From Oceanispirochaeta crateris (GTDB taxonomy: Bacteria > Spirochaetota > Spirochaetia > DSM-2461): 64,000 nt of DNA. Below are positions 13,839 to 23,891 of the stretch, piece after piece. Numbering within the stretch: position 1 is the first letter of the stretch; the number at the start of each line of letters is the position of its first letter. The stretch covers positions 3,514,439 through 3,578,438 of the forward strand of contig NZ_CP036150.1 in NCBI RefSeq assembly GCF_008329965.1. Reading direction: 5' to 3'. Both the position numbers and the translations under genes were made by a program. The notes beneath the pieces were generated by a model. It searched no databases. It had not been told where the DNA came from and saw only the letters and a list, made by a program, of their open reading frames with translations.

Positions 13839-14549
13839 TTAACTTTCCTGGGGTGAATTCATTTTTGCATACTTTTTAAAAGCCCATCCGAACTTTAAAG
13901 TCCTTTTTACAGGACAAGCTGCTATACACTCCATACAATTTATACACTGTGCGTTACGGACATCGGGGTGTTGGGATATTTGTATCTGAGAGGGGCAGGC
14001 TTTATCACATTTTTTACAGGAAATACATTTTGTTTCATCTCTTGTAATTGTGAATAACCTGGCCAGGCTGACGATACCGTAACGGGCTCCCTCGGGACAA
14101 AAGAAGCGGCAAAAAGGTCGGTCTATGATGAACGAAAGAGTCAGAAAGCTAATCATGAGGACCCATGCTGCCTGGGTAATGTAGCTCATATTTCGATCCA
14201 CTACTCCCATGAATGAGGCATAGGGACTCTGCAACAGCAGAACTGCTGCCAGTCCGGTCATTGAAAGACCTAGAAGTATATACCTGCTCAAATTGAGCCA
14301 GCGAACAGCCTTTAGAGGAATCCTGATTTTAGGAATTCTAAGGAGCTGCCCCAGTTTACCTATCCACTCCTGGGCAAAGCCGAAGGGACAGAACCAACCG
14401 CAGAACCAGGCCCCTCCTAACAGGGTTGATCCCATGAGAACTCCCATGAATATGATATTTTTACTCATAACCCCTTCGATCAGGAGGAGCATATAGGCAA
14501 TGGGCATGAGTGCCCTGACGATTTGATACCAGCGGATTTTTTTTAACAT
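13839..14549 (-). CDS. NapH-like membrane polyferredoxin
   Basis: A 236-residue protein with about four to five membrane segments. CGWFCPFG (Cys50, Cys54) and FCRFFCPEG lie at membrane edges, as in NapH/MauN/CcoG-type proteins. Two classical 4Fe-4S motifs follow at the C-terminus (CISCKKCDKACP and CINCMECIAACP). Proteins of this type carry electrons between the quinone pool and periplasmic or cytoplasmic enzymes. It is the last gene of the Tat/flavoprotein block, 38 bases after tatA, and is the likely membrane electron donor or acceptor for the exported flavoprotein (inference from position). Confidence 0.8.
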   Translation of the reverse strand: MLKKIRWYQIVRALMPIAYMLLLIEGVMSKNIIFMGVLMGSTLLGGAWFCGWFCPFGFAQEWIGKLGQLLRIPKIRIPLKAVRWLNLSRYILLGLSMTGLAAVLLLQSPYASFMGVVDRNMSYITQAAWVLMISFLTLSFIIDRPFCRFFCPEGARYGIVSLARLFTITRDETKCISCKKCDKACPSQIQISQHPDVRNAQCINCMECIAACPVKRTLKFGWAFKKYAKMNSPQES

Positions 14550-14587
14550 TGTGTTCTCCTATTTACTTCGCATATCAACGTTAGGTT

Positions 14588-14767
14588 TTAAGCTTTGGTT
14601 TCTGTTTCACCGGCAACTTGACTTTTCAGGTCCCGGGTTTCTTGCATTCCCCGTTCAAATTCAAGACGGGCTTTTCCAATATTCCTTGCAAATTTTGGCA
14701 GAGCTGAAGCTCCAAAAAGTAAGACGACTACTCCGCTGACGACTAAGACTTCTGTTGTTCCAATCAT
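14588..14767 (-). CDS. tatA: Twin-arginine translocase subunit TatA/E
   Basis: A 59-residue protein: a short N-terminus MIGTTEVLVV, one membrane helix, the hinge FGASALPKFARNIGKAR with the conserved F-G and L-P, then an amphipathic helix. The ATG at 14767 has AGGAGT upstream; an upstream in-frame extension overlapping tatB is not believable as protein. It would form the pore component with the TatB- and TatC-like proteins encoded just upstream. At 59 residues it is short, like TatE. Confidence 0.85.
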   Translation of the reverse strand: MIGTTEVLVVSGVVVLLFGASALPKFARNIGKARLEFERGMQETRDLKSQVAGETETKA

Positions 14768-14768
14768 T

Positions 14769-15038
14769 TTATGACTCCTGATGTTTGAGAGATGTTTTTT
14801 CCCTCTTAAATGGTTTTTTTTTGTAATCAAATACTTTATCTTCATCAAAACTTGCTGCGGTTTTGATTTCTTCTTCAAAGCGTGCAAAATTCTTTCTTAT
14901 TCCATTCATCTGCCTCATAACCGATCCATAAACTCGTCCTATCTTCCTGACAAGGGCAGGAATATCTCTAGGGTTCACTAAAACAATTATGACGATTAGA
15001 AGAGTTATTATTTCTGTAATTCCAAATCCGAACATCAC
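14769..15038 (-). CDS. tatB: Twin-arginine translocase subunit TatB-like
   Basis: An 89-residue protein starting MMFGFGITEIITLLIVIIVLVNP, where FGxGxxE is characteristic of TatB. It has one membrane helix, the hinge NPRDIPALVRKIGRVYG, a longer amphipathic helix and a basic tail. It is immediately downstream of tatC (stop and start adjoin) and one base upstream of tatA. TatB-like proteins help TatC bind twin-arginine signal peptides. It could be a second TatA rather than a true TatB. Confidence 0.8.
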   Translation of the reverse strand: MMFGFGITEIITLLIVIIVLVNPRDIPALVRKIGRVYGSVMRQMNGIRKNFARFEEEIKTAASFDEDKVFDYKKKPFKREKTSLKHQES

Positions 15039-15797
15039 TCATTCTCCAAATTTAAATATTTTTGCAACCAGCAAGGTCAGATAAAATAGGCCTGTCATAG
15101 GCAGTGCCAAACCAACCTGTGTCACAAAGTCCGGGGGTGTCAAAAGTGCTGAAATCAGGAAAAATAGTACCACCATATAACGACCAATTTTCAACAGTAC
15201 TTTTCTCTGAACGACATTCAACACGAGGAGAATCTCAATCAGTACGGGCATCTGAAAAACAACCAGGGTCATTAAAATAAACTGGAGAATGTAAAAGAGA
15301 TTCCCTCCGAAACTCAGTAGCATTCCTGTATTTTCAGGTATAAATCCAGTTCCTGTCAGAAAAACGATAGAAACGGGTATTATGCTGTAATAGCTGTAAA
15401 AGAATCCCCCTACAATAAAGAAAAAACTGCATATCAAGGTTATGATAAGTATTTGCCGCTCTCTCTTTATAAGACCTGGAAAGATGAAATAAAGGAGATT
15501 GAACAGGTGTACCGGCAGAGAAATGATAAATCCGGCCAAGGCTGATATTTTCAGTTTGACGAGAAATCCCTCTGCAAGGGTAGTAATGTACAGCACATTA
15601 CCGCCACTGCCTTCAGCCAACTGCAAAAGAGGTTCGAAAAGGAAGGCCATAATTTTGTCATACAGGCCGATGGCAATCCCGAAGCCTCCTGCCAGAGCTA
15701 TGGCAGAAATGATAAGACCGCGTCGCAGCTCCATAAGATGAGCGAGTAGGGGCATCCGGTCTTCCGCTGTTCTCTTCATGCTTATTGAGCTGGCCAT
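15039..15797 (-). CDS. tatC: Twin-arginine translocase subunit TatC
   Basis: A 252-residue, six-span membrane protein. The N-terminal MPLLAHLMELRRGL matches the signal-peptide-binding region of TatC (consensus HLxELRxR). A conserved FxxxFGxPVLI-like stretch appears as FQMPVLIEILLVLNVV, and the C-terminal part includes LLTPPDFVTQVGLALPM. The 5' end overlaps the flavoprotein stop by 16 bases; an alternative start is Met7 at 15779. The coupling to one Tat substrate gene suggests a dedicated translocase. Confidence 0.92.
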   Translation of the reverse strand: MASSISMKRTAEDRMPLLAHLMELRRGLIISAIALAGGFGIAIGLYDKIMAFLFEPLLQLAEGSGGNVLYITTLAEGFLVKLKISALAGFIISLPVHLFNLLYFIFPGLIKRERQILIITLICSFFFIVGGFFYSYYSIIPVSIVFLTGTGFIPENTGMLLSFGGNLFYILQFILMTLVVFQMPVLIEILLVLNVVQRKVLLKIGRYMVVLFFLISALLTPPDFVTQVGLALPMTGLFYLTLLVAKIFKFGE

Positions 15798-17539
15798 TTG
15801 TCAAAGTCCTGTTTTTCTAACTTCATTTCTCCGTCACTCCCTTGATAAATATTGATCCAGGCCTGCCAGTTTTCGTAATCGACCTCAGGATAATCCAAAC
15901 GAAAGTGAGAGCAACGGCTCTCTTTGCGCATGATCGATGCCTTGAGCTTCATTTCGGCATTGATGATCATGTTGGATGTTTCGTGAGCCAGTCTGAGTTC
16001 ATGTAGATTGGCTGCTTTGAGCATGGGGCTGTGGTGATTCCGGAGTTCTTCAATATAAGCCAGAGCTCCTTTGAGGATGCTTTCCTTTTTGATATAAAGA
16101 ACAAAGTTGGGGATCATAATACCCTGCAGTGTCTGGGTTACCCAGGCAGGACTGTAACCGGAGTCCCTTTTCAAGGGAGCCAGAATTTCTTCTTTGATCC
16201 TGTTAATCTGCCTTGTAGAAATCGTTTGAAACTGCACTGTTTTAGAGTATTCTGCTGCCGCTTGGGAAACGATTGTGCCCTGGACTGCCGACCCTGCCAG
16301 TGATGATCCTATTTGGGTATAGATAGCTCCGGCCATATAGGAGCCCAATGCATCTCCTGCTGCATATAAACCAGGAATATTGGATTCTCCCTTCTCATTG
16401 ATAGGAACCAGTCCCTCTGATTTATGAATGGACATCCCAGCAGAGGCTCCCCCGGAAGAAGATCCTGCCATCCCGGGAGGGGCTCCGTCTTTACCTCCAG
16501 GAGGAGGCCCGTTTTTACTGCCTGAAGGAGGTCCGTTTTTATCTCCGGGAGGAGGTCCTTCTTGTCTGTCTTTCATCGAGAATGCAGCCGGTATATACGG
16601 TCCGCCTTCTACTTCCACTGAGTCTCCTCTGCCGGGCATCATGGAGACAGGATTTCCCAGTTTATAGGCCTTGTAGTTTACATCTACTCCCAGATCATGG
16701 TGAACCTCAACTCCAGTTGTCGAGGGGGTTTGCTCAAACATACCATGCCATCCGTCATAACAGGCGGCGGGGTTTATTGTTGAACCGCTATGACCATCGT
16801 TCCACTCTTTTCCGGTTATTTTAGCGCCGATTTTGTAGGCCATGATCGAGCCGTCATGTGTCAGGTCACAGATGGGGAAACCATTGGGTTTGAACCCTCC
16901 TGCACCTGTACAGAGTATGACAGATTTTGCCTTAAATACGTGTATAACGGCATCGTCTATGCTGAATCCTGCGGCTCCTGCTATGCGCCCGTTTTCCTTG
17001 ATCAGGTGGGTAATCATGATCCTTTCCATTACAGGAATTTTCCTCTCGGAAATAGGCTTGTTGAAGGAATCGTAACAAAGAGGAGATTTAAAGAATCCCC
17101 ATTCTTCAAGTTCATCTACTCTCTCTTTTGAATGTTCAGCCATTTGTCTCGTATAGACTGGATTGTTTGTTTGCAGTGCTGAAGCAGAAACCTTGTTTGT
17201 AAACTCGTCCAGAGTGAGGCTTGCTGTGTCAGAATCGTAGGACATGATTCCCTTGGCAAAAGGGGTTTGTCCCGATGTTCCCAGGCGTCCTTTGGATACT
17301 ACCAAAACTTTTGCCCCTGCATCATACCCTTTCACGGCAGCGAAGAGACCTGTCATGCCGCCGCCAATGACAAGGACATCTGTTTCATTTTCCTTGTAAT
17401 CCACTTTATCGGGATCCAGTTCTCTATTGTTTTTTGTCCAATTGATATTCATTCCCATAGATGCCAGTGCGGCTGCTCCGAGAACTCCGCCGGTGAGACC
17501 TAAAAACTGTCGTCTGGATATTCCATTCTTGTCATTCAT
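15782..17539 (-). CDS. Tat-exported FAD-dependent oxidoreductase (fumarate reductase/AprA superfamily)
   Basis: 585 residues. A twin-arginine signal SRRQFLGLTGG (residues 8-18) is followed by a hydrophobic stretch. The FAD dinucleotide motif VIGGGMTGLFAA is at 57-68, and a second FAD contact, GLYAAGDALGS, at 390-400. The fold and the C-terminal helical region (RLAHETSNMIINAEMKLKASIMRKESR) are as in succinate/fumarate reductase and APS reductase flavoproteins. Residues 328-369 hold four imperfect 8-residue repeats of the form xGPPPGxK, not expected in this family. The start at 17539 is preferred (GGGGG upstream). The substrate is unknown. A ferredoxin gene lies just upstream and tatC overlaps its end, so it is probably folded with FAD, exported by Tat and fed electrons in the periplasm. 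Confidence 0.85.
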   Translation of the reverse strand: MNDKNGISRRQFLGLTGGVLGAAALASMGMNINWTKNNRELDPDKVDYKENETDVLVIGGGMTGLFAAVKGYDAGAKVLVVSKGRLGTSGQTPFAKGIMSYDSDTASLTLDEFTNKVSASALQTNNPVYTRQMAEHSKERVDELEEWGFFKSPLCYDSFNKPISERKIPVMERIMITHLIKENGRIAGAAGFSIDDAVIHVFKAKSVILCTGAGGFKPNGFPICDLTHDGSIMAYKIGAKITGKEWNDGHSGSTINPAACYDGWHGMFEQTPSTTGVEVHHDLGVDVNYKAYKLGNPVSMMPGRGDSVEVEGGPYIPAAFSMKDRQEGPPPGDKNGPPSGSKNGPPPGGKDGAPPGMAGSSSGGASAGMSIHKSEGLVPINEKGESNIPGLYAAGDALGSYMAGAIYTQIGSSLAGSAVQGTIVSQAAAEYSKTVQFQTISTRQINRIKEEILAPLKRDSGYSPAWVTQTLQGIMIPNFVLYIKKESILKGALAYIEELRNHHSPMLKAANLHELRLAHETSNMIINAEMKLKASIMRKESRCSHFRLDYPEVDYENWQAWINIYQGSDGEMKLEKQDFDKWPAQ

Positions 17540-17544
17540 TTCAT

Positions 17545-17757
17545 TTACCCCCATGACACGATTACCGGTATTGATTTTTCAGGTGTAATTGTTATGGCAT
17601 CTACAGGACAGTACATTCTGCATAGATGGCAGATCTGACAGTCTTCGGGATAAGCAATGTAAGCTTTGCCATTGTCTTTCAACCTGATTACATCTGTAGG
17701 ACAGGTTTTGACGCAGGTCCCACAGCCTATACATCCGTATATACTCTTGATAGCCAT
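17545..17757 (-). CDS. Two-cluster 4Fe-4S ferredoxin (AprB-like)
   Basis: A 70-residue protein with two complete cluster motifs: Cys9-12-15-19 (CIGCGTCVKTCP) and Cys40-43-46-50 (CQICHLCRMYCP). There is no signal peptide. The pairing with a flavoprotein gene 5 bases downstream mirrors aprBA. It may bind the flavoprotein before export and ride through the Tat channel with it, or stay in the cytoplasm; the sequence does not decide. Confidence 0.88.
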   Translation of the reverse strand: MAIKSIYGCIGCGTCVKTCPTDVIRLKDNGKAYIAYPEDCQICHLCRMYCPVDAITITPEKSIPVIVSWG

Positions 17758-17793
17758 CTATTTATCTCCTCAGTTTTATTGGATTTCTGCGGT

Positions 17794-18318
17794 TTATACT
17801 TCCTGCAGAGCGTTGATTACATCGGATAACATTTCAGTCATATCCATCTTTTCTGGTCCAGGACCATTTGAAGGCCTGCTATTGTTATCACCCTGAGGGG
17901 GAGCTCCATTTCCGCCTTGAGGAGGGGCTCCATTACCACCTTGAGAGCCTCTTTCTCCACCGGGAGGCGGAGGGAGCATCGCATTCTGCTGTTCCGTGAG
18001 TTCTGAAGTTATACGTTCTACAAAGGTTTCTGGATCTGTTTCGGAGTCTTCCAATCGAGCATCCTGCCACTCTTCAAGAATGGGGATAATCTTTACAGCT
18101 TGATCTGCTGTGAGGGCTATGGCGTCCTCTTCCACTTCTGCAAGGTACTGAAGCTTTACGACTGTCAGCTCAGATTCTGAAGGCATGGGGCGGTCCTGTT
18201 CTGGACCTCCCTCCGGTCTGGAGTTTCCAGAATCTGAGGGATTGCTCCCTGAGGCAAAGGTGAACATGGCCAGGTTGAATAGAAGAGCAACCATTACGAA
18301 TCGAGTGTATTTTTTCAT
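17794..18318 (-). CDS. Secreted LTxxQ-motif protein with Gly/Pro-rich repeats
   Basis: A 174-residue protein with an N-terminal signal (hydrophobic to residue 22, then ASGSN). The middle region has two LTxxQ motifs, LTADQ at 69-73 and LTEQQ at 107-111, the signature of CpxP/Spy-like periplasmic chaperones, within predicted helices. Residues 116-155 are low complexity and include two tandem GGNGAPPQ repeats; a short helix closes the protein. The Gly/Pro repeats resemble those inserted in the neighbouring flavoprotein. It is the first gene of the Tat/flavoprotein block, 36 bases before the ferredoxin. A chaperone or binding role for the exported enzyme is an inference. Confidence 0.6.
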   Translation of the reverse strand: MKKYTRFVMVALLFNLAMFTFASGSNPSDSGNSRPEGGPEQDRPMPSESELTVVKLQYLAEVEEDAIALTADQAVKIIPILEEWQDARLEDSETDPETFVERITSELTEQQNAMLPPPPGGERGSQGGNGAPPQGGNGAPPQGDNNSRPSNGPGPEKMDMTEMLSDVINALQEV

Positions 18319-18493: not shown

Positions 18494-19699
18494 TTAAAAA
18501 CTGTAAATACAAAGGGCATTCATCGAATGCCTCATAGGCCAGGCAGAGAGTTCGTTAAAGTCATGACTGTCAAGGTCAAATAATCCTGTGTAACCAAACT
18601 GGACACTGAAGCTGCCAGAGAAATTATGAGTGACGGCGGGTAGCAGAGTCAGCGCTCCAGAATCCGGGGCAATCAGGGCTGATATAGTAATCTCTGTATT
18701 GATGTCATAGAAGGGCTGGCTCAGATTCAACAGGAAGTAGTGACGTCCAAAATAGCCCGGCGAATAGTGATCAAAAAGATCGGGGATTATGGGAAGGGCA
18801 CTTTCAAAGTCGGATCTTTCTGATTTGTTATACCCTTCGCCGTTGTAAAAGTATTCCACGACTGAGGACAAGCCACTTTTGAAGGTGTATTCTAATCCCA
18901 GGAGTCCGGAAAAAAGCCAATCCGTTTTTCTTTCTCCAATACTGCTTGCGGTGGGAAAGAGGTTCCGGCTGCCTTTGCGTAAAGCAAGCTCCGAATAAAT
19001 CCCGGCTCCCCATAGGTCCAAAATAGCCGCTGTGCCGAGGGCCGGTGTGTAACCGTCACTTTCCTTGCTGTTCTCATCATCCCAGAATCCGGAGAGCATC
19101 AATTCGATTCCCGGAAGGTAGAGAGTCATCTCAGTCCCCGCTTTTGTCTCGCCGTATGTCCATCCCTCTTCAGAGGGAGATTCAGGCAGTAGGGCATAAA
19201 GTTTGAGAGATATCGTTTCATTGGGATAGATCCGGAGAGACACAGCGTCTACACCTTTGAGCTCGGCATCAGGATCAGATGGATCTTTTTGAGGATTGGC
19301 AAAATCAATGGGATTCCATCCATAACCGTAGCCTGTCAGCATGCTCTGCCGCCCTGTTTCTACCGAGATCGTATTGTTTATGTAGATGAGGGCAGAAAGG
19401 CGCAGCAGATTCAGAGAGTAATCGCTCCTCTCGGGGGCAGTGCTTTCTCCCAGGGAAAACCAGGCCGAAAAGGTCGTTTTTTCATCACCAGCATCAATTT
19501 TTGCCGTGAGGGAAGAGAGCATCGACAGATCTGTTATTCCCAAATCGTCCCTTGAAAAAAGACTCTCACTATCCAGAGATTCGGGAGCGTTGGCTGTGAT
19601 ATTCATTTCAGCCTTCCCCGAAAAGCTGGCCTGGGAAAATAGGGGAATCGTCAAAAATACTGCCAATAGGGGTAAAATCATTTTCTTCATGTCTCTCAC
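18494..19699 (-). CDS. Outer-membrane beta-barrel protein, function unknown
   Basis: 401 residues with a signal peptide (cleavage near FSQA) and a pattern of alternating polar/hydrophobic strands throughout, ending MNALCIYSF with a terminal aromatic as in outer-membrane barrels. Phrases such as VETGRQSMLTGYGYGWNPIDFANP resemble DUF1302-type barrels that accompany RND (MMPL-like) exporters and LolA-like proteins. The start overlaps the LolA-like stop (ATGA). It is the last gene of the TetR/RND operon; role in the export of a lipid-like compound is inferred. Confidence 0.6.
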   Translation of the reverse strand: MRDMKKMILPLLAVFLTIPLFSQASFSGKAEMNITANAPESLDSESLFSRDDLGITDLSMLSSLTAKIDAGDEKTTFSAWFSLGESTAPERSDYSLNLLRLSALIYINNTISVETGRQSMLTGYGYGWNPIDFANPQKDPSDPDAELKGVDAVSLRIYPNETISLKLYALLPESPSEEGWTYGETKAGTEMTLYLPGIELMLSGFWDDENSKESDGYTPALGTAAILDLWGAGIYSELALRKGSRNLFPTASSIGERKTDWLFSGLLGLEYTFKSGLSSVVEYFYNGEGYNKSERSDFESALPIIPDLFDHYSPGYFGRHYFLLNLSQPFYDINTEITISALIAPDSGALTLLPAVTHNFSGSFSVQFGYTGLFDLDSHDFNELSAWPMRHSMNALCIYSF

Positions 19700-20490
19700 C
19701 TTATGCTTTCCAAGTAGCCTATGGTAAAAAGTCTGTCCTGGACTTTGGAGCTATCCATTTCCAATTTGATGACTTCAACCACTGTTACAGATGGCTTCGT
19801 GTGATTTTCCATGGTCTGACGGAAGGGGTATACCTTGGATCCAACAGTTCTGAAATCATGGAGAGTCATGCTCTTGATGTTGGCGTTTCCTTCATAATAA
19901 TCAATCCTCAGGTACCGGAATCCTTCTTTGGTGATAAAGACGACCATCTTTTCATAGGGGGCATCAGAGTCGGCAGCCAGGAGTTCCACCTTATAGCAGT
20001 CTTCTCCTTCGACTGTGTCATCTCCCAGGAGTCTTGCCCTGTATTTTTCGGAAATACCCTGTCCGCCATCTCCCATGTCGGCATAGGAAAAATCGGTACC
20101 TCCCGCGGAGTTCTTCTTGGCCGAACTGCTCAACTTCCGGGTTCTCCCGGTCGAGCCGAATCGAACCCACAGATCATCCTCTATCATTAAGTTTGCCGTT
20201 CCTTTCATCCTGTTCGGGGCCGTGTAGATCGATAGAGAATAGGATTTTCCCTCTTTCTCCATGGAATATCCTTCCATTTCCTGAACCGGCTGTGCTTTAC
20301 CTGATTTGTACACGGTCATACGGCTGGTGCTATAAATACGATCTCCCTTGAGGGCTTCATCAGCTCTTTTTACGATTTCATCCGCACTTTGGGCGGCAGC
20401 AGAATTGGGTAAAAAAGCTGTAAGAAGGGTTACAAGCATGAATACCATGATGGGCTTCAAACGATCCGTTTTCATTACTAAAAAGCTCAT
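19696..20490 (-). CDS. LolA-like outer-membrane lipoprotein-sorting family protein (PF17131 type)
   Basis: 264 residues from the ATG at 20490, which has GGAGG upstream and overlaps the RND stop by 4 bases; a longer in-frame start inside the RND gene is less likely. A signal peptide (LVTLLTAFLPNSAAAQ) is followed by SADEIVKRADEALKGD, typical of the start of this LolA-like family, and later strands such as VFITKEGFRYLRIDYYEG. Members occur with MMPL-type RND exporters and probably bind lipids in the periplasm. It links the inner-membrane exporter and the outer-membrane barrel in the same operon. Confidence 0.75.
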   Translation of the reverse strand: MSFLVMKTDRLKPIMVFMLVTLLTAFLPNSAAAQSADEIVKRADEALKGDRIYSTSRMTVYKSGKAQPVQEMEGYSMEKEGKSYSLSIYTAPNRMKGTANLMIEDDLWVRFGSTGRTRKLSSSAKKNSAGGTDFSYADMGDGGQGISEKYRARLLGDDTVEGEDCYKVELLAADSDAPYEKMVVFITKEGFRYLRIDYYEGNANIKSMTLHDFRTVGSKVYPFRQTMENHTKPSVTVVEVIKLEMDSSKVQDRLFTIGYLESIR

Positions 20491-23246
20491 TTTTTCCTCC
20501 AAGGGGCCAGATTCCATCCCCATTTTTCATGAACTATGATCAGTATTGCCGGATGGAGCAATACGGAATACAGAAAAGCTATGGTCATAGCCAGGGTCAG
20601 CACGATTCCCGTACTCTTCATGGCCCGCATCACTGAGGGAATAAAGGAGGCAAAACCGAAGATGGTGGTGAGGGTCGTCAGTAACAGAGCGGTCCCTGTT
20701 CGGGCTATGACAAGTTCCATTTTCCCTTTTCCCTCTTTAAGGTATCTGTGATTGATATGGACCGCATCATCTATGCCTATTCCTATTAAGAGGGGGACAA
20801 CGATAATGTTTAAAAAATCAAATTTTATATTTGTTAAACCCATGAATCCAAAAAGAGTCAAAAAGGAAGCCATGAGAGGGAGCATTGTCAGAAGAGCTAG
20901 CTTTATATTTCTAAAATCGATGACCATGATTATAAAGATAACTATCAGGGCGAGTATAGCTGCTCGGACACCATCTTGTTCCGCCATGATGGTCAGCTGG
21001 TCTCCGGCGAGGATCGTTCCTGTGGCCTTGTCTGTTACAGATTCTATCTGGGCGGTATAAATATCACGGAAATCTCCTTCCCAGGGGCTCTGGGTCGGGT
21101 TGATTGTTATGAGATAGGAAGATCCATCTTCTGATATCATGGAGTCTGTGATATTAGAAGGCAGCATCTCTAGAGTTACTCTGCCGGTTTCGGCCATGGT
21201 TCTCACACGATGATTCATAGCATCGAAAAGCATATTCTGAAAGTGGTCAAGAGCCTCTTTTTCCTGAGGCTCCGCGGGATTTTCGAGGGAGGTAAAGAGG
21301 CTGTCAAAGCTGGTTTTCTTTGTTTTTACTCCTTCCATGTTGATCCCGGTTAGCTCTCCCAGGGTATATACCAAGCGGTTCATATTTCCCAGGAAGGCCA
21401 GATCTCCCAGTTCTATCAGGTTTGCTTCCAGTCGGTAGAGTTCTTCCAGTAGTTCTACCCGGTTGACTGTCTTTAGGGGTGATCGTTCATCCAGCTCTGT
21501 AATGAAGGATTTGATGAAATTTCCTCTTTCAATATATTCACTGTCCCGTACATAGAATTCTGATAATGATTCCACTGATTTTACAGAAGAGAGGTCTTCG
21601 AGTTTTTCTGTTAAGGCTCTTACTTCCTCCAGATCATCACTTATAATTGATAGCCCATCCGGAGCCATTCCAAATTCTTTGGCCATCTCATCGTTCAGCT
21701 GTACCGATTCGAGACCTTTAGCTTCCATCTCCAGGATATTCTTCTGAAGACTGATGTCTTTAACCTTGAAAGAGAAAGCTACGATTGTAAGGATCATGAC
21801 GACTGTGATTGTTACCGGAGCTTTAACGATAAGTCTCCCAATTCCTGCGGCGGCATCTGACTTGATCTTTACTTTTGAAAACAGTTTCTTTTCGGTTTTC
21901 CCCTTTTTTATCATTCGGTATTCTCTAAAAGACAGCAAAGGAGGAATCAATAAAATCATAACAAGGAGTTCACTTAAAATCCCCAGGCCGGCTACGACTC
22001 CCAGTTCTCTCATGATGCCGGTTTTAGCAATGGTGAGTGTGAAAAACGCGGCAGAAGTTGTTAATGCACCAGTTAGTATCCCTGAGCCGCTTTTTATCAG
22101 TGAGTTTTCGACGGATGTTTCAAAATCTCTTCCATCGTCTCTTTCCTGAATATATCCAGATAACAAATGAATGGCATAATCGATTCCCAGTCCCAGAAGA
22201 GCCACAATATACATGGCTGTCATAATGTTGAGGCGGTCCAGGAAATAACCGCTGAGGCCTACTGCCCAGAGTATTCCCGTGAGAAGCGGTATTCCTGCGA
22301 TGAAAGGGACAGAAAACATCCTAAATACAAAAATCAAAAGTCCAAGAATTAAAACAAAGGCAATGATGGAAGACCCAGCAAGTCCTTTTTCAGAGCTGAC
22401 CATTTCATCCCGGCCAATCACTGTGAAACCGGTTATTCCTGCTGTAACTCCATGCTGGGAAGCAATGTGTTTGGCTCCTGATTCTACTGTATTCACCCCA
22501 GCCCGGAGTAGGGCTAAATCGTTGATAGTAAAGGTAGGCTGAACAACCATGAGACCCATTTTATTGTCGTTGCTCATAATATATTCATCACCCAGCATAT
22601 AGGCATCCAGAGCAGCATGGAGATCCTCATCAGAGATTTTTCTACCCTGTGTAGCTTCATTTATCAGCTGTAAAAGCTGGTCCAACCCTCTAAAGAGTCC
22701 CACCGCTTGTGTCTCATCCTCTGCAAGTTTATCACTGTTTCCAGAATACTCAGCTTCAAAGTCATCGTTGATGTGTCTGATCAGCGGAACGAGGTTGAGA
22801 TTTCTATAGGTTCTTTTCTGGCGTTTAAGATCTTCCATTTTTGTGAGCATAAGTCCATGTTCTTTAAAGAAACTCATATCCATTCGTCCTGTCGTTCCAG
22901 AAACATAGGGCTCGTATTTTTCTCCTGAGTACTCCTCAATGAGGCTATCTATTGTATTCTTTACAATCCTTTCCGCCTCGGCAGGATCTAGAATGGACCG
23001 TCCATCAACAACTACAAGAATTCCGGAAACTGCAGGAAACTCTTCGACTATTCTCTGCAAATCCCTTACCTGGTTTGATTTGTCCGGAAGGATGGAATAG
23101 AAGGTCATTTCCATCCTGAGTCTTGTCATTCCATAAGCAATAATGATGGTCAGTCCTAAGACAATAAGGAGTGCCTTCCCCCAATTCTTTACTGACCACC
23201 GGGCCCACCGGCTCAGGATTTTTTCTCTCAGATTCAGTTGTTTCAT
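20487..23246 (-). CDS. RND superfamily (MMPL-type) exporter
   Basis: 919 residues with the two-fold repeat of this superfamily: one N-terminal span, a large periplasmic domain (about 40-270), five more spans (about 280-440), then the same plan again (about 475-900). The GLGIDYAIHLLSGY and GIGIDDAVHINHRY motifs at equivalent positions in the two halves carry the aspartates expected in proton-driven members. Homologues move lipids, hopanoids or other hydrophobic compounds rather than drugs. It heads an operon with the LolA-like protein and barrel and is controlled by the adjacent TetR regulator. Confidence 0.85.
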   Translation of the reverse strand: MKQLNLREKILSRWARWSVKNWGKALLIVLGLTIIIAYGMTRLRMEMTFYSILPDKSNQVRDLQRIVEEFPAVSGILVVVDGRSILDPAEAERIVKNTIDSLIEEYSGEKYEPYVSGTTGRMDMSFFKEHGLMLTKMEDLKRQKRTYRNLNLVPLIRHINDDFEAEYSGNSDKLAEDETQAVGLFRGLDQLLQLINEATQGRKISDEDLHAALDAYMLGDEYIMSNDNKMGLMVVQPTFTINDLALLRAGVNTVESGAKHIASQHGVTAGITGFTVIGRDEMVSSEKGLAGSSIIAFVLILGLLIFVFRMFSVPFIAGIPLLTGILWAVGLSGYFLDRLNIMTAMYIVALLGLGIDYAIHLLSGYIQERDDGRDFETSVENSLIKSGSGILTGALTTSAAFFTLTIAKTGIMRELGVVAGLGILSELLVMILLIPPLLSFREYRMIKKGKTEKKLFSKVKIKSDAAAGIGRLIVKAPVTITVVMILTIVAFSFKVKDISLQKNILEMEAKGLESVQLNDEMAKEFGMAPDGLSIISDDLEEVRALTEKLEDLSSVKSVESLSEFYVRDSEYIERGNFIKSFITELDERSPLKTVNRVELLEELYRLEANLIELGDLAFLGNMNRLVYTLGELTGINMEGVKTKKTSFDSLFTSLENPAEPQEKEALDHFQNMLFDAMNHRVRTMAETGRVTLEMLPSNITDSMISEDGSSYLITINPTQSPWEGDFRDIYTAQIESVTDKATGTILAGDQLTIMAEQDGVRAAILALIVIFIIMVIDFRNIKLALLTMLPLMASFLTLFGFMGLTNIKFDFLNIIVVPLLIGIGIDDAVHINHRYLKEGKGKMELVIARTGTALLLTTLTTIFGFASFIPSVMRAMKSTGIVLTLAMTIAFLYSVLLHPAILIIVHEKWGWNLAPWRKK

Positions 23247-23291
23247 CGCTTCTTTCTCCCTATCCCGCGGATCGGGGTGAATGGTCTTATT

Positions 23292-23891
23292 CTATGCCTG
23301 GACTCTCTTCAGGGTGGACTGAACAAGACTCTCACCAATGGTTGTGAAATCTATATCGCTTGTAAATTCTGAAATCAGCATGACACCTTCTGCCATGGCA
23401 ACAAGTTCAAAAGCCAGCTGCCGACAATCAATCTCTTTACGGACATCACCTTCTGTTTGTAAATGAGAAATTAAATTCTCTAGGTCCTTTTGCATTCCCC
23501 TGTAAATTTCGGTAATCAACTCCTTAATCGCAGGGAATTTCTTAATCCCCATAAACATGAGGTAGCTGAAATTTAGATAATTTCCGGCAAAGTCTATCCC
23601 CGTGTTTTTTTCGAATTCATTCAGGTAGGTTTCAAAGGAAAATAGACCCCGCAGCAGTTCTTCCAGGGAGTAATCTCCTTTGAGTGAGTTCATCGTAATG
23701 TTCTGCATTTTTGAAAAGACAGTCCGCAGACACTCCTGGAAGAGTTCCTCCTTGCTACCGAAGTAATGATAGATGCCGCCCTTGGTGATTCCTATGCCAT
23801 CTGCAATAGAATTGAGGGAGACTCTTTCATAGTCATTTTCCACCAGGAACTGTAGGGCTTTTAGTAGGATCTTTTCTTTTGTCTCTTTCAC
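23292..23891 (-). CDS. TetR-family regulator of the RND operon
   Basis: 199 residues. The N-terminal TetR domain has the usual SLNSIADGIGITKGGIYHYFGSKEELF; the C-terminal half is helical and ligand-binding. It lies 45 bases upstream of the RND gene on the same strand. A strong palindrome of TetR type precedes it (23909-23931), so it probably represses itself and the exporter genes. Confidence 0.85.
   Translation of the reverse strand: MKETKEKILLKALQFLVENDYERVSLNSIADGIGITKGGIYHYFGSKEELFQECLRTVFSKMQNITMNSLKGDYSLEELLRGLFSFETYLNEFEKNTGIDFAGNYLNFSYLMFMGIKKFPAIKELITEIYRGMQKDLENLISHLQTEGDVRKEIDCRQLAFELVAMAEGVMLISEFTSDIDFTTIGESLVQSTLKRVQA

Follow-up and report, generated by a model that had tools for sequence, protein, structure and literature searches.

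A putative self-contained periplasmic reductase cassette with its own Tat translocase in the spirochete Oceanispirochaeta crateris

A cluster of seven genes in Oceanispirochaeta crateris probably encodes a self-contained periplasmic reductase, in which a flavoprotein and its ferredoxin would be exported together through a TatCBA translocase of their own and would deliver electrons to a substrate unlike fumarate. The cluster lies in a stretch of 64,000 nucleotides, which we call the window. The cassette is a lineage-specific form of a far more widely spread, putatively periplasmic flavoenzyme. On balance we lean towards the reading that the flavoenzyme represents a new family of Fe-S flavoprotein reductases in the periplasm, acting on a new substrate, mostly marine, present in many phyla and served by three kinds of membrane donor, which takes its own translocase along in Tat-poor lineages; Tat would be inherited there as part of cassettes for single enzymes, rather than as a general route of secretion.

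Organization of the gene cluster

All seven open reading frames lie on the minus strand and run from 18318 to 13839 (Table 1). The preliminary description of seven head-to-tail genes with overlaps or short gaps was confirmed for each of them in place and order; the ferredoxin and flavoprotein frames overlap by 10 bp and those of the flavoprotein and TatC by 16 bp. Homologues of TatC (PF00902, 2.4e-44), TatA (PF02416, 2.4e-10) and TatB together make up a Tat translocase, TatB being assigned from a weak match below the cut-off (TIGR01410, 7e-9) and from its conserved position. The flavoprotein matches PF00890 (3e-21) and PF02910 (6e-12) and carries the Tat motif SRRQFLG followed by a hydrophobic stretch, and the ferredoxin sequence holds two 4Fe-4S sites. 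The membrane polyferredoxin has the transmembrane Fer4_5 motifs and C-terminal 2x[4Fe-4S] region of the NapH family (PF12801, 3e-16, in two stretches; PF13237; TIGR02163, 8e-25); because it reaches 88 of the 213 bits of the TIGR02163 cut-off, we call it NapH-like and not NapH. The LTxxQ-like protein is named for its two motifs and its signal peptide, and it matched no Pfam family, PF07813 (LTXXQ, CpxP/Spy) included.

Table 1. Features of the cluster and sites of the proline/glycine motif (positions in the window unless a locus is named)
Feature	Position	Strand	Remarks
Secreted LTxxQ-like protein	17794..18318	-	174 aa; signal peptide; LTADQ and LTEQQ motifs; Pro/Gly-rich tail PPPPGG..APPQGG
Two-[4Fe-4S] ferredoxin	17545..17757	-	70 aa; without signal peptide; near-invariant C-terminal tail PEKSIPVxVSWG
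Tat-signal flavoprotein	15782..17554	-	590 aa; FrdA/AprA superfamily; hypervariable Pro/Gly-rich linker at about residues 325-365
TatC, flavoprotein-linked clade	15039..15797	-	Domain match and TatC tree
TatB	14769..15038	-	Weak TIGR01410 match; conserved place between TatC and TatA
TatA	14588..14767	-	Domain matches
NapH-like membrane polyferredoxin	13839..14549	-	Domain matches; replaces the ferric-reductase-like cytochrome of most relatives
GPPP/PPPGG-like motif sites	16430-16580 and homologous linkers; L022 2228-2629; L038 6364-6636		

No Rfam RNA was found near the cluster at gathering score, and a phage origin was rejected after yielding no match. A promoter scan did not exceed shuffled sequences and a terminator scan exceeded them only slightly; neither was used. 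Just upstream on the same strand, a separate group of genes (18494-23891) encodes a TetR-like regulator, an MMPL-family exporter, a LolA-like protein and an outer-membrane-like protein.

A widespread flavoenzyme that is linked to tat in spirochetes

A scan of bacterial genomes recovered 80 flavoprotein loci with 57-76% identity by best segment, distributed over Spirochaetota, Bacteroidota, Thermodesulfobacteriota, alpha- and gammaproteobacteria, Campylobacterota, Planctomycetota, Ignavibacteriota and other lineages; several of the 80 are metagenome bins whose taxonomic assignment may be wrong. Judged by name or source, the carriers are mostly marine. Full-length alignment of 30 members gave 60-79% identity to the flavoprotein of the window. 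The core conserved over many phyla consists of the 70-aa two-cluster ferredoxin and the Tat-signal flavoprotein (57-79% identical), which occur together in 72 of the 79 loci on the gene-order map. We infer that horizontal transfer, chiefly between marine bacteria, disseminated this core enzyme. It is a strongly conserved putative periplasmic redox enzyme, and a search of open-licence papers found no earlier description of the gene set.

In most phyla the widespread unit comprises the ferredoxin, a ferric-reductase-like cytochrome and the flavoprotein, without tat. Within the mapped locus set tatCBA is confined to spirochete loci, and the order TatC-TatB-TatA, with TatB in the middle, is conserved. 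Relatives of the LTxxQ-like gene adjoin the ferredoxin in two loci (L012 and L019) and lie 7 kb away in another (L015); the gene is a common yet inconstant neighbour. The notion of the whole set as one conserved module therefore stands in part: synteny of the flavoprotein with tatABC is kept in spirochetes (7 of the 9 flavoprotein genomes of the class), but most phyla lack tat and the LTxxQ-like gene is frequent without being constant. Since the arrangement recurs in several families, the linkage is not due to chance, an explanation that we also rejected on account of a TatC clade specific to flavoprotein loci.

A Tat system that follows its substrate

The genome has two TatCs. The second belongs to another tatCBA (C1:224.9 kb), whose operon also encodes a Tat/lipobox 4Fe-4S protein, FdhD and an aldehyde ferredoxin oxidoreductase (AOR). 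TIGR01409 and PF10518, two independent Tat-signal models that are short and miss divergent signals, each find the same two Tat proteins in the 4.0-Mb genome, one beside each tat operon. In a tree of 75 TatC sequences all 8 of 8 flavoprotein-linked TatCs, from several families, form one clade (100/100), and the other TatC of the window's genome falls among AOR-linked TatCs; a second tree without long branches agrees. TatC therefore tracks its substrate rather than its host, even where one cell has two Tat systems, so that Tat acts as a portable accessory of one enzyme. This makes the cassette a clean natural system for testing Tat substrate specificity.

Across the class, TatC scores above the cut-off in 68 of 297 genomes and the flavoprotein occurs in 9, with TatC directly adjacent in all except G003 and G294. 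G003, a member of the same genus, carries the flavoprotein without linked tat. Of its two other tat operons, the first adjoins an FMN/FAD Tat flavoprotein and the second lies 3.9 kb from a flavoprotein paralogue with 34% identity; another Tat can thus presumably serve the flavoprotein there. The G294 copy (L209 9595-11326) is decaying: its flavoprotein gene has been split in two, and no tat adjoins it. Within the family of O. crateris, TatC is above the cut-off in 5 of 26 genomes, and each of their 7 tat operons has a Tat-signal redox protein nearby, counting G006, where the flavoprotein sequence is divided between two contig ends, and G003, where one such pair is 3.9 kb apart on opposite strands. 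Class-wide, a strict Tat-motif frame lies within 4 kb of 25 of 73 tat operons, so substrate linkage is no general rule in spirochetes, and we discarded the rule that every tat operon has a linked substrate. Most non-spirochete carriers of the flavoprotein use an unlinked Tat.

An independent repeat of the combination was found on plasmid pILYOP01 of Ilyobacter polytropus (Fusobacteriota), which encodes a NapH-like/FMN_bind protein, a secreted protein that is LTxxQ-like by motif only, a ferredoxin, two signal-less paralogues, a Tat flavoprotein, TatA, TatC and TatB. This flavoprotein is 45% identical to that of the window, shares the same kind of Pro/Gly linker and is the sole protein on the 0.96-Mb record in which a Tat signal was found. 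Its TatC falls outside the spirochete flavoprotein-linked clade, though on a long branch, which indicates that the combination was assembled, or its Tat exchanged, more than once.

The tat genes are thus linked to one substrate and inherited along with it, and the comparisons support a tatCBA that appears dedicated to the flavoprotein, adjacency being no proof of exclusivity. The preliminary description had coupled tatABC to a single substrate and had asked for a second tatABC in the genome; the one beside the AOR/Fe-S pair answers that question, and together with the two Tat signals, the specific TatC clade and spirochete synteny it bears out the coupling. The tat genes might instead be a general cell translocase that stands beside the flavoprotein by coincidence, as Tat translocases in general accept foreign substrates and many tat operons of the class have no linked substrate. 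We regard this as very unlikely in view of the second operon, the mere two Tat signals detected, the confinement of one TatC clade to flavoprotein loci across several families and the repeat in Ilyobacter. Bacillus subtilis TatAdCd-PhoD and Listeria tatAC-fepCAB likewise encode a translocase beside the particular substrate that it serves (PMC3068169, PMC4481299), but these are minimal TatAC systems for other substrates, whereas the cassette holds a TatABC lineage that tracks its substrate across host families together with an electron-transfer chain.

Two other tat cassettes were observed alongside. The second locus of O. crateris (L013 4811-10107; G000:C1 ~220.8-226.1 kb) also encodes, between the aldehyde ferredoxin oxidoreductase and FdhD, a 186-aa protein without Pfam match, a possible chaperone, and in seven other spirochete loci a similar Tat Fe-S protein is encoded about 3.3 kb upstream of TatC. 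In the congener, the 34%-identical Tat flavoprotein and a ferredoxin paralogue (L014 6647-8923) have an esterase-like protein (PF20434, BD-FAE) and a further TatABC in their vicinity.

The flavoprotein lacks the arginines of fumarate reductases

The flavoprotein has the FAD_binding_2 and Succ_DH_flav_C domains and the FrdA-like fold of the FrdA/SdhA superfamily, and its structural model resembles APS/PAPS reductase, FrdA and SdhA with Z of 30-40. Its best sequence match among solved structures is APS reductase (1jnr/2fja), with the capping region unaligned. The alpha subunits of APS and PAPS reductases are the closest solved proteins in sequence and fold and also pair with a ferredoxin-like subunit, but identity over the structural alignment is ~20-25%. 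Those reductases are cytoplasmic, and the Tat signal of the flavoprotein speaks against a cytoplasmic enzyme.

In fumarate reductases and L-aspartate oxidase, the region that matches residues 179-462 contains the arginines that bind the substrate and donate protons. Over this region no arginine is conserved (80% or more) among 30 family members, and the flavoprotein reads YTQIGSSL where SdhA has R-L-G-G-N-S-L, a segment with a substrate arginine in SdhA. Both the capping-domain and the R-L-G-G-N-S arginines of fumarate reductases are therefore missing, so dicarboxylate reduction is unlikely and we set aside a fumarate reductase function. An ordinary periplasmic fumarate (dicarboxylate) reductase, in which NapH replaces the quinol donor, would fit the common superfamily fold and the example of 8-methylmenaquinol:fumarate reductase (MFR; sdhABE of Wolinella and Campylobacter), whose Tat-exported flavoprotein likewise works in the periplasm with an Fe-S partner and an electron donor in the membrane (PMC2680327). 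With the arginines gone and a 70-aa 2x[4Fe-4S] ferredoxin in place of an SdhB-type subunit, we give this reading little credence. The cassette further differs from MFR in its NapH-like or PF01794 donor and its linked tat operon; it joins two known kinds of system, Tat-exported flavoprotein/Fe-S reductases such as MFR and substrate-linked Tat systems such as PhoD-TatAdCd.

Residues C215, H233, H255, H286, H377, K378 and Q414 are invariant and may mark a different pocket, in a region where the model is weak. Guesses at the substrate include an oxidised periplasmic protein, a polyphenol or a compound linked to a sulfated polysaccharide.

Exchangeable membrane donors and the direction of electron flow

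Most loci carry a ~215-aa PF01794 protein (ferric-reductase-like, heme b) between the ferredoxin and the flavoprotein. In a single clade of 13 gammaproteobacterial loci a longer protein combines PF01794 with FAD- and NAD-binding domains instead, and the window and three family relatives (L009, L010 and L011) have the NapH-like donor, adjoined in L011 by an FMN_bind protein. No PF01794 match was found anywhere in the window's genome, which rules out such a donor elsewhere in it. Because three donors swap within the same gene set, electrons would reach the flavoprotein from a membrane donor, as the preliminary description had proposed. The interchangeable donors point to a periplasmic reductase fed from the membrane or the cytosol.

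In known NOX and ferric reductases with the PF01794-FAD-NAD architecture, NAD(P)H electrons move outward, and the NAD(P)H-binding version of the donor accordingly hints at outward flow here. Electrons might run the other way, the flavoprotein being a periplasmic dehydrogenase that gives them to the membrane; NapH-like modules do serve oxidases as well as reductases (PMC8238504), but the gammaproteobacterial fusion argues against this direction, which we think improbable. As for the reductase that we favour, we infer its acceptor and direction of flow, and quinone as its donor.

In MsrPQ, which repairs methionine sulfoxide, a PF01794 heme-b membrane donor feeds a Tat-exported periplasmic reductase. 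Most relatives of the cassette share this plan, but their enzyme is a flavoprotein/Fe-S pair and not a molybdoenzyme, and the window's copy has NapH instead. NapH-type proteins also give electrons to extracytosolic oxidoreductases in other systems (PMC8238504); the carrier in the cassette, unlike theirs, is a ferredoxin, and FMN_bind domains occur in some relatives only (L011 and Ilyobacter).

A model for co-export and electron transfer

The nearly invariant tail of the ferredoxin is in line with a fixed, putative ferredoxin-flavoprotein complex. The ferredoxin has no signal peptide and might simply stay in the cytoplasm while the flavoprotein alone is exported. The strict pairing of the two genes and the invariant tail are, however, as expected for a tight complex, and in MFR a signal-less Fe-S subunit is exported together with the flavoprotein (PMC2680327); cytoplasmic retention seems unlikely to us. 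In the co-export that we prefer, the flavoprotein would fold with FAD in the cytoplasm and bind the ferredoxin, and the folded pair would leave through the TatCBA of the same operon by hitchhiker export. In the periplasm, the NapH-like protein would take electrons from quinol or a cytosolic low-potential carrier and pass them to the ferredoxin, then to FAD and finally to an acceptor that is not fumarate-like. Tat is often absent from spirochetes, in which the gene set would travel with its own translocase.

Neighbouring genes and a shared proline/glycine motif

Frequent neighbours among the 79 loci are CotH (21), LTxxQ-like proteins (16), a small QGPPPEAIAAC protein (17) and, within ~8 kb, Lcl_C (DUF1566) proteins (19). 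The predicted structure of the Lcl_C protein is of low confidence; the C-terminal domain of Legionella Lcl binds sulfated glycosaminoglycans (PMC11162425). The O. crateris genome has its single Lcl_C gene at 2.995 Mb, in trans to the cassette and next to the gene of a membrane AraC regulator (L212 7199-9930). Similar AraC-type membrane regulators adjoin the cassette in L009, L010, L015 and L018, and relatives of the Lcl_C protein and the regulator adjoin it in other spirochetes. In Bacteroidota loci (L020, L047, L058 and others) the flavoenzyme cassette is accompanied by LytTR-type regulators and VTC/DUF4956/DUF2490/CotH genes.

GPPP-type motifs are present in 1% of unclassified neighbours but reach 86% among the flavoproteins, 82% among the small QGPPP proteins and 71% in one LTxxQ group. 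A GPPP/PPPGG-like motif is common to non-homologous secreted proteins, namely the flavoprotein (in its linker), the LTxxQ-like and QGPPPEAIAAC proteins, some Lcl_C proteins and sensor kinases.
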